Origin: Pirellulales bacterium
Lineage (GTDB): Bacteria > Planctomycetota > Planctomycetia > Pirellulales > Lacipirellulaceae
NCBI GenBank assembly: GCA_019636345.1
Contig: JAHBXQ010000006.1
Coordinates: 124,001 to 188,000, forward strand
DNA: 64,000 nt
Direction: 5' to 3'
Below the pieces are notes generated by a model that was not told where the DNA came from, searched no databases, and saw only the letters and a program-made list of their open reading frames with translations. The position numbers were made by a program, and so were the translations under genes. Below, one piece after another: positions 23,392-24,797 of the stretch. Each line of letters begins with the position of its first letter. Position 1 is the first letter of the stretch.

Positions 23392-23688
23392 CTACCCCCC
23401 CGAGACCGCGCCGACGACCAGCAGCGGTTCGGCGCCGGCGACGATCGGCCCCGGCAGCGGGGCATCGAGCGATTCGTCCGACCAATCCTCGTTGCAGACG
23501 AAGTACCGCAGATAGGGGCGCCGCCGGCCGGTCGCAGGGTCGCGGATCGTCCCGCGCAGCGCGGGAAACTGGACCTCGACGGCGTCGATCACGGCGTTCA
23601 TCGTCACCGGCCCGTCGATCGACAGGGCGAGTTCCCCTTCAATCTTCGCCAACGCGCGGAGCGGCGACGGCAGCATGACTCGGATCAT
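23392..23688 (-). CDS. MoaD/ThiS-like ubiquitin-fold protein ending in Gly-Gly
   Basis: This 98-residue protein has the beta-grasp pattern of MoaD/Thi[21 protein letters not shown], then [16 protein letters not shown], then the acidic loop [16 protein letters not shown], ending in [12 protein letters not shown]-terminal Gly-Gly is the site where such proteins are adenylated and turned into thiocarboxylates, or are attached to targets. Its ATG overlaps the stop of the upstream propeller gene (ATGA, 23685-23688), so translation is probably coupled. No MoeB/ThiF-type activating enzyme is nearby. A role in molybdopterin or thiamine synthesis is not supported by the neighbours. Confidence 0.8.
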
Positions 23689-24797
23689 GGCAGGGTTTGC
23701 ACCTCGACCGAGAGTACTGCCGGCAAGTCGCGAACGATTGGCCGCCAGTGGTCTCCCCCGTCGGCCGAGCCGTAGACTTGGCCCCCCGTCGTACCGAAAT
23801 AGATTCCGCACGGGTCGAGTTCGTCGGCGGTCATTGCGTCGCGGAGGATGTTCACGTAGCAGTCCTGCTGCGGCAAGCCGTCGGTCAGCGGCTCCCACTC
23901 GTTCCCGCCGGTCCGGCTGCGATAGACCCGCAGCTTGCCCTCGGGAACGTAGTGCTCGGCGTCGCTCTTGATGGGGACCACGTACACGGTGTCCGGTTCA
24001 TGAGCGTGCACCTGGATCGGGAACCCGAAGTCCGTGGGCAAATTGCCGCTGATCTCGTGCCAATTGTCGCCGTAGTCGTCGCTTCGCATCACGTCCCAGT
24101 GCTTTTGCATGAACAACACGTTGGGGCGCGCCGGGTGCATATCGATTCGGTGGACGCAGTGCCCCACCTCGGCCGTCGGATCGGGAATGTACTGGCTGTG
24201 CAGCCCGCGATTGATCGGCCTCCAGGAGCCGCCCCCGTCGTCGGTGCGGAACGCCCCGGCAGCGGAGATGGCGACGTACATCCGCCGCGCGTCGCTCGGG
24301 TCGATCTTGATCGTGTGGAGGCACATCCCCCCCGCCCCCGGCGCCCATGCGGGACCTTGGCAGGCCCGCAGCGCGGGCAACTCGTGCCACGCGTGGCCGC
24401 CGTCGGTCGTGCGGAACAGCGCCGCATCTTCAATCCCTGCATAGACGACGTCGGGGTCGTCCGCCGCGGGCTCGAAATGCCATACCCGCTTGAACTCCCA
24501 CGGATGTGGCGTGCCGTCGTACCACTGGTGGGCGCCGGGGTCGCCGTCGTAGGCGAACTGATTGCCGACCGCGTTCCAAGTGATTCCGCCGTCGTCGGAG
24601 CGCTGGACGACTTGGCCGAACCAACTGCTCGTTTGCGAGGCGTAGATGCGGTTGGGATCGGCAGGCGATCCTTTAACGTGGTAAATCTCCCAACCTCCGA
24701 AATGAGGTCCCGCGACGGACCACTGGCGACGGGCCCCGTCGGAGGTCAACACGAAGGCGCCCTTGCGCGTCCCGACCAACAATCGCACCCCGGCCAT
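23685..24797 (-). CDS. Asp-box (BNR) beta-propeller protein
   Basis: This 370-residue protein is built from about six sialidase/sortilin-like repeats. Five Asp-boxes are visible: [32 protein letters not shown] and SADGGDHW. There is no signal peptide from the chosen ATG at 24797 ([15 protein letters not shown]), so it seems cytoplasmic, unlike most BNR sialidases. The Arg triad and nucleophile Tyr of sialidases are not evident, so the name sialidase should be avoided. It is translationally coupled to the MoaD-like gene. Enzymatic or scaffold role unknown. Confidence 0.85.

Follow-up and report, generated by a model that had tools for sequence, protein, structure and literature searches.

The propeller and ubiquitin-like genes of the window

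The window, a stretch of 64,000 nucleotides from a contig of a Pirellulales bacterium, carries a compact gene pair that encodes a beta-propeller and a ubiquitin-like protein (Ubl) (Table 1). A previous reading, made from the sequence alone, had described this pair, and both open reading frames are present with correct coordinates and description. The ATGA overlap is formed by the stop TGA of the propeller gene (23687-23685) and the ATG of the Ubl gene (23688-23686), and the Ubl ends in GAVSGG. The N-terminus of the propeller was inspected by eye, and no signal peptide was seen, in agreement with the sequence-only reading. Likewise, no E1, molybdopterin or thiamine gene lies beside the pair in the window, although an E1 does adjoin it in two relatives. 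An alpha-amylase family gene (PF00128; 21850-23349), also on the minus strand, begins 42 nt past the Ubl stop and may share a transcript with the pair; it did not recur among the neighbours of the pair elsewhere.

Table 1. Features of the propeller-Ubl locus in window coordinates.
Feature	Position	Strand	Evidence
Asp-box (BNR) 7-bladed-type beta-propeller, 370 aa, apparently cytosolic	23685..24797	-	ORF, Pfam, AF2, Foldseek, homologue alignment
Ubl, SAMP1/MoaD/CysO-type beta-grasp, 98 aa, C-terminal Gly-Gly	23392..23688	-	ORF, AF2, Foldseek, NCBIfam
ATGA stop/start overlap of the propeller and Ubl genes	23685..23688	-	Sequence; recurs in 62/92 pairs
Gly97-Gly98 codons, Ubl terminus	23395..23400	-	Sequence; invariant in alignment A1
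Cys214 codon TGC, motif GHCVH, propeller	24156..24158	-	UGA (Sec) in 11 relatives; two further clades have Asp
His216 of the C-V-H motif, propeller	24150..24152	-	Kept in all clades
His161, LHT/LHS motif, propeller	24315..24317	-	Nearly invariant in all clades
His233, Q-x-H motif, propeller	24099..24101	-	Kept in all clades

The AF2 model of the Ubl is a beta-grasp (pLDDT 90.5), and its closest solved structures in Foldseek were SAMP1, CysO, the BexX/CysO complex, MoaD and Urm1, with SAMP1 as the top match (TM 0.76-0.82) and CysO as the second-best. The window Ubl matched no Pfam family. Among the NCBIfam families, SAMP1 was the best, with weak matches in 36 of 48 orthologues and a value of 4.4e-10, below the cut-off, for a Ubl of the selenocysteine (Sec) clade. 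The fold, the C-terminal Gly-Gly and an E1 in the genome are all features of the MoaD/ThiS/SAMP1/CysO type, and, judged from the predicted model, the Ubl is structurally of the sulfur-carrier type. The conservation of Gly-Gly, a check proposed from the sequence alone, was complete: the two glycines occur in 91 of 91 Ubls, at the terminus in 87 and followed by 2, 2, 3 or 14 residues in the other four. They are also kept at the C-terminus of the Ubls of divergent clades. Nine Ubls (L028, L043, L044, L069, L241 and L246-L249) extend 2 to ~28 residues past Gly-Gly, which, by analogy with other Ubl precursors, suggests a processing peptidase. In one of 40 divergent planctomycete loci (L170:4142-4999, plus strand), the Ubl forms a fusion with a DinB_2 domain and the Gly-Gly is internal, so that no free Gly-Gly terminus would exist unless the protein is processed.

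The genome of the window carries its own MoaD gene immediately upstream of MoaE and a ThiS-family gene elsewhere; therefore, the Ubl is a third, dedicated one. As it is neither the partner of MoaE nor the only MoaD of the genome, a role as a molybdopterin-synthase subunit, the outcome that would have overturned the sequence-only reading, is unlikely.

The AF2 model of the propeller (pLDDT 83.5) had 3b7f as its top Foldseek match (TM 0.86), and the window protein matched BNR / Sortilin-Vps10 in Pfam. Across 96 homologues, 132 of the 370 residues are kept in 98% or more of the sequences. The relatives carry RefSeq-derived database names such as 'exo-alpha-sialidase' and 'sialidase family protein'. 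Although the Asp-box beta-propeller of GH33 sialidases is there, the window propeller matched no sialidase family of Pfam at E<=1 and its sequence lacks the F/Y-RIP motif. Many bacterial proteins of this family appear misnamed as sialidases. The residues kept family-wide are His161, position 214 (Cys, Sec or Asp), His216, Gln231 and His233. In the predicted strand order, the conserved residues fall at inner-strand starts and in a b-c loop, which would place them on one face, close to the channel, and Cys214 would cluster there with the histidines. In two clades, Asp (rarely Val/Ile) replaces Cys214 and the Ubl is still retained, so the role of the Ubl may be independent of the thiol at this position.

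Distribution of the pair and of candidate activating genes

A scan of species-representative genomes found the propeller in at least 80 loci, 74-80% identical to the window protein. According to the record titles, these loci span Planctomycetota, Acidobacteria, Actinomycetota, Chloroflexi, Proteobacteria, Verrucomicrobia, Bacteroidetes, Gemmatimonadetes and others. A Ubl adjoins the propeller in 76 of the 80 listed loci, and the remaining four end at a contig edge, which gives 76 of 76 loci with a continuing contig. The recurrence of the ATGA overlap and of Gly-Gly in the propeller-Ubl pairs is beyond chance.

The co-occurrence count that had been suggested was run for the clade-A proteins in 294 planctomycete genomes. 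Both genes were present in 11 genomes, the Ubl only in 1, the propeller only in 0 and neither in 282 (Fisher p = 4e-19); in two of the 11 (G290 and G293), the genes are both there and non-adjacent. Additionally, when the loci in Acidobacteria were found via the Ubl alone, the propeller adjoined it in 19 of 20, and propeller and Ubl distances, compared pair by pair, are correlated (Mantel r 0.63, 0/2000 permutations). Divergent planctomycete propellers, including relatives of 3b7f, have an adjacent Ubl with SGG in 39 of 40 loci, either downstream or upstream of the propeller depending on the clade. The pairing therefore extends over the whole propeller superfamily. Three propellers of the Cys type from Rhodobacterales, one copy from Streptomyces (L216) and one from a planctomycete (L188) had no Ubl beside them. 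The phage records gave no match.

Plasmid relatives from Pseudomonas aeruginosa, Mitsuaria and Burkholderia carry a 'MoaD/ThiS family protein' beside the propeller, and a plasmid of Cupriavidus metallidurans carries an unannotated Ubl there. The Pseudomonas aeruginosa pair (L212:2702-4098) consists of MoaD/ThiS followed by 'exo-alpha-sialidase', with Ile at position 214; this relative is therefore a form with a non-Cys residue at that position. It is flanked by YciI/VOC/sigma-factor genes and YbaK/VOC genes. Beside one Cys-type Rhodobacter propeller without an adjacent Ubl lie the ergothioneine genes egtB/egtD (L218:589-2770). In one locus (L030:7110-7816), ~700 nt separate the propeller and the Ubl; the end of this spacer repeats the last codons of the propeller, and it is a local duplication or an assembly artefact. 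For L064, the propeller-Ubl linker on stop read-through would be 2 residues; L005 and L007 are better candidates for folding a fusion. The wider neighbours of the pair vary, with weak recurrence only of VOC/glyoxalase, YciI, DinB, AHSA1 and DUF6596-sigma types. As a pointer to the substrate, the recurring neighbours are only a lead.

The search for MoeB/ThiF partners, also proposed previously, resulted in an E1-type adenylyltransferase in 32 of 32 tested genomes carrying the pair and MoaE in 31 of 32; both are nearly universal in such genomes, so their presence is not discriminating. The genome of the window has one strong MoeB/ThiF-type E1. Adjacency of an E1 is rare (2 of about 80 loci): a MoeZ-type E1 with a C-terminal rhodanese directly adjoins the pair in L031 (4235-5611, minus strand), and in L067 (7424-8840, minus strand) the pair is followed by a desampylase-like JAB gene and a MoeZ-like gene with a broken frame. 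No E1 + E2 + DUB operon of the Bil/CBASS type is adjacent to the pair in the window, where PADLOC gave no match.

UGA and probable selenocysteine at position 214

The window propeller uses Cys at position 214. In six clade-B propellers there is an in-frame TGA, and all six align to this residue (GHCVH in the window, GTUVHKLLLHPAAPG in theirs). When 392 planctomycete genomes were searched by pattern, an in-frame UGA at the Cys214 position was found in 11 genomes of 7 families, and 10 of the 11 UGA propellers have an adjacent Ubl. The first six of these genes fall in one supported clade of the tree, along with one Cys member. Orthologues with TGC occur in the same clade as the UGA propellers and, in the case of g277, within a single genus: the same codon is UGA with an intact hairpin in G604/G616 versus TGC with a weakened hairpin in G644/G658/G689.

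The hairpin lies 26 nt downstream of each UGA and has a GGC or GGU loop, a stem of 6-9 bp and an energy of -10.3 to -16.6 kcal/mol. A bSECIS is defined by a loop of 3-9 nt with G in its first two positions, a stem of 4-16 bp, a spacing of 16-37 nt and an energy <= -7.5 (PMC13188914). All of these features were found in 11 of 11 UGA propeller genes versus 1 of 36 Cys orthologues and 2 of 15 Asp forms. A chance hairpin was rejected on the contrast between the UGA and Cys genes (Fisher p = 7e-10, a value that overstates independence, as the UGA genes are related by descent). A frameshifted or split gene was likewise rejected, since the same codon is affected in 11 species and conserved protein continues beyond it. 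The normal stop is UGA in 9 of the same 11 genes, which indicates that the code is not reassigned.

We found tRNA-Sec in 10 of the 11 UGA-propeller genomes and SelA in 5 of 6 tested, with the missing cases in fragmented assemblies. The clade L160-L173, L240-L254 thus has UGA at a conserved Cys, a bSECIS and the Sec machinery, as in a selenoprotein family, and the UGA at position 214 appears, on this genomic evidence, to be read as selenocysteine in eleven relatives. The genome of the window itself gave neither a tRNA-Sec above the cut-off nor a full-length SelA match. The propeller resembles the known bacterial selenoprotein families in its Cys/Sec pair, bSECIS and tRNA-Sec; a propeller or sialidase-like family is absent from the 119 entries of the prokaryotic selenoprotein inventory, which lists a selenoprotein MoeB of the Ubl-activating type (PMC13188914).

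The interchange of Cys and Sec singles out position 214 as the prime candidate for a functional residue. In known selenoproteins, Sec occurs mostly at redox or nucleophilic sites, and by this analogy Cys214 is probably catalytic. Position 214, whether Cys, Sec or Asp, is also a possible metal ligand.

A proposed sulfur carrier with a propeller client and its alternatives

In ThiS-ThiG, MoaD-MoaE and CysO-CysM, the Ubl gene adjoins the gene of its client enzyme. From this analogy and from a sulfur-carrier-type Ubl with invariant Gly-Gly, we read the Ubl as a dedicated sulfur carrier that a shared E1 would charge, and the propeller as its thiol/selenol client enzyme (probability about 0.5). The C-terminal glycine of the Ubl would be adenylated by the shared MoeB/ThiF-type E1 of the cell or, in some relatives, by the neighbouring MoeZ-type E1-rhodanese, and the adenylated terminus would be converted into a thiocarboxylate. 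The Gly-Gly tail would then bind the cytosolic propeller at its central face, and the sulfur would be accepted there by Cys214 (or by Sec in some relatives) together with His161, His216 and His233. Alternatively, in this last step, Cys/Sec214 and the histidines may carry out thiol/selenol redox chemistry on a small substrate. The points against a sulfur carrier are the lack of an adjacent E1 in the window and its rare adjacency elsewhere, the near-universal E1 and MoaE, which do not discriminate, the two clades that retain the Ubl with Asp (rarely Val/Ile) at position 214, the five propellers without an adjacent Ubl and the internal Gly-Gly of L170. The wider version, a pan-bacterial system in which a thiocarboxylated Ubl hands sulfur straight to the Cys/Sec of a beta-propeller selenoenzyme, is tentative; if true, the propeller would be a fold class new to both Ubl clients and selenoproteins.

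The sequence-only reading had offered sulfur transfer or protein conjugation linked to the propeller as a possible function. That link is strengthened by the kept Gly-Gly, the separate MoaD and ThiS and the sulfur-carrier-type fold, none of which directly tells the two chemistries apart. For conjugation, Gly98 would be joined to target lysines, and the propeller would be the target, a ligase-like carrier (through a Cys214 thioester) or a target receptor. SAMP1 and Urm1, which are near the Ubl in fold, do act as conjugators, a desampylase-like JAB adjoins the pair in L067, and the nine Ubls with 2 to ~28 residues after Gly-Gly would need trimming. A further precedent is the conjugation of Urm1 to a peroxiredoxin coupled to cysteine persulfidation (PMC12645042). 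However, no E2, E3 or regular JAB partner was seen, PADLOC detected no defence-type Ubl system, and the Asp clades could not form a thioester at position 214. We also know of no precedent for Sec in an E2/E3-type residue, and on balance we regard conjugation as quite improbable. A stand-alone thiol/selenol or metal enzyme, in which the Ubl would be structural or regulatory and its Gly-Gly tail would sit in the channel without carrying sulfur, also seems unlikely. Its proposed metal ligands are His161, Cys/Sec/Asp214, His216 and His233; Cys, Sec and Asp could all bind a metal, the three histidines are conserved, and some Cys-type propellers have no adjacent Ubl. By contrast, the strictness of the terminal Gly-Gly across very divergent Ubls and the E1 neighbours in two relatives suggest chemical activation.

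The two conventional explanations fare worse. The first, an ordinary sialidase or glycoside hydrolase whose MoaD neighbour has nothing to do with it, would fit the Asp-box fold, the database names and the GH74 xyloglucanases, which are the best solved relatives after 3b7f. We consider it very improbable, because the window protein has no sialidase profile match, F/Y-RIP motif or signal peptide, whereas the family has a Cys/Sec-V-H motif with a SECIS and a near-obligatory Ubl. The MoaD/ThiS fold and the MoaE of nearly all pair-bearing genomes (31/32) would agree with a Ubl that serves cofactor synthesis as a spare MoaD or ThiS, but with the separate MoaD beside MoaE, the separate ThiS and the propeller as conserved partner, this is scarcely credible.

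Returning to the sulfur-carrier reading, the closest known system is actinobacterial sulfur-carrier cysteine synthesis, in which CysO works with CysM, MoeZ and the JAB protein Mec+. The present pair is similar in that a Ubl ending in Gly-Gly adjoins its proposed client enzyme and that, in relatives, genes of the MoeZ-type E1-rhodanese and JAB kinds lie next to the two. In CysO-CysM, however, the client is a PLP cysteine synthase, whereas here it would be a beta-propeller with a Cys/Sec-V-H motif, and no CysM was seen adjoining the pair. The likeness to SAMP1, the small archaeal modifier of Haloferax and the best match in both structure and NCBIfam profile, is of fold and profile only; the window-type Ubl is bacterial and nearly always paired with the propeller. 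ThiS-ThiG and MoaD-MoaE share the adjacency of the Ubl gene to the enzyme that uses its thiocarboxylate, but the genome of the window has its own ThiS and MoaD and the propeller is an unrelated partner. In the Urm1/Uba4 system (urmylation), the Ubl fold is similar and the thiocarboxylate chemistry of Urm1 targets the redox-active cysteine of a peroxiredoxin; unlike the present Ubl, Urm1 has no dedicated propeller partner.

The solved relative 3b7f (Reut_B4987, YP_299179.1; 'glycosyl hydrolase, BNR repeat') belongs to the same propeller family with 34-37% identity, but its motif is GHDPH instead of GHCVH. It was described as a 7-bladed Asp-box propeller with no function assigned (PMC2716378). 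In the literature searched, we found no description of the Ubl-propeller pair, including for 3b7f / Reut_B4987, and a survey from 2006 of the gene neighbourhoods of prokaryotic Ubls contains no propeller. A Ubl with a client enzyme is an already known kind of system; judging by these sources, the Cys/Sec propeller as client and selenoprotein is new.

Taken together, the evidence points to a hitherto undescribed sulfur- or redox-chemistry pair and not to the sugar-cutting enzyme named in the databases. If the sulfur-carrier reading holds, the pair would be a widespread sulfur/selenium chemistry module moving between phyla; a beta-propeller would join the selenoproteins, and a dedicated bacterial Ubl would gain a concrete, testable partner.
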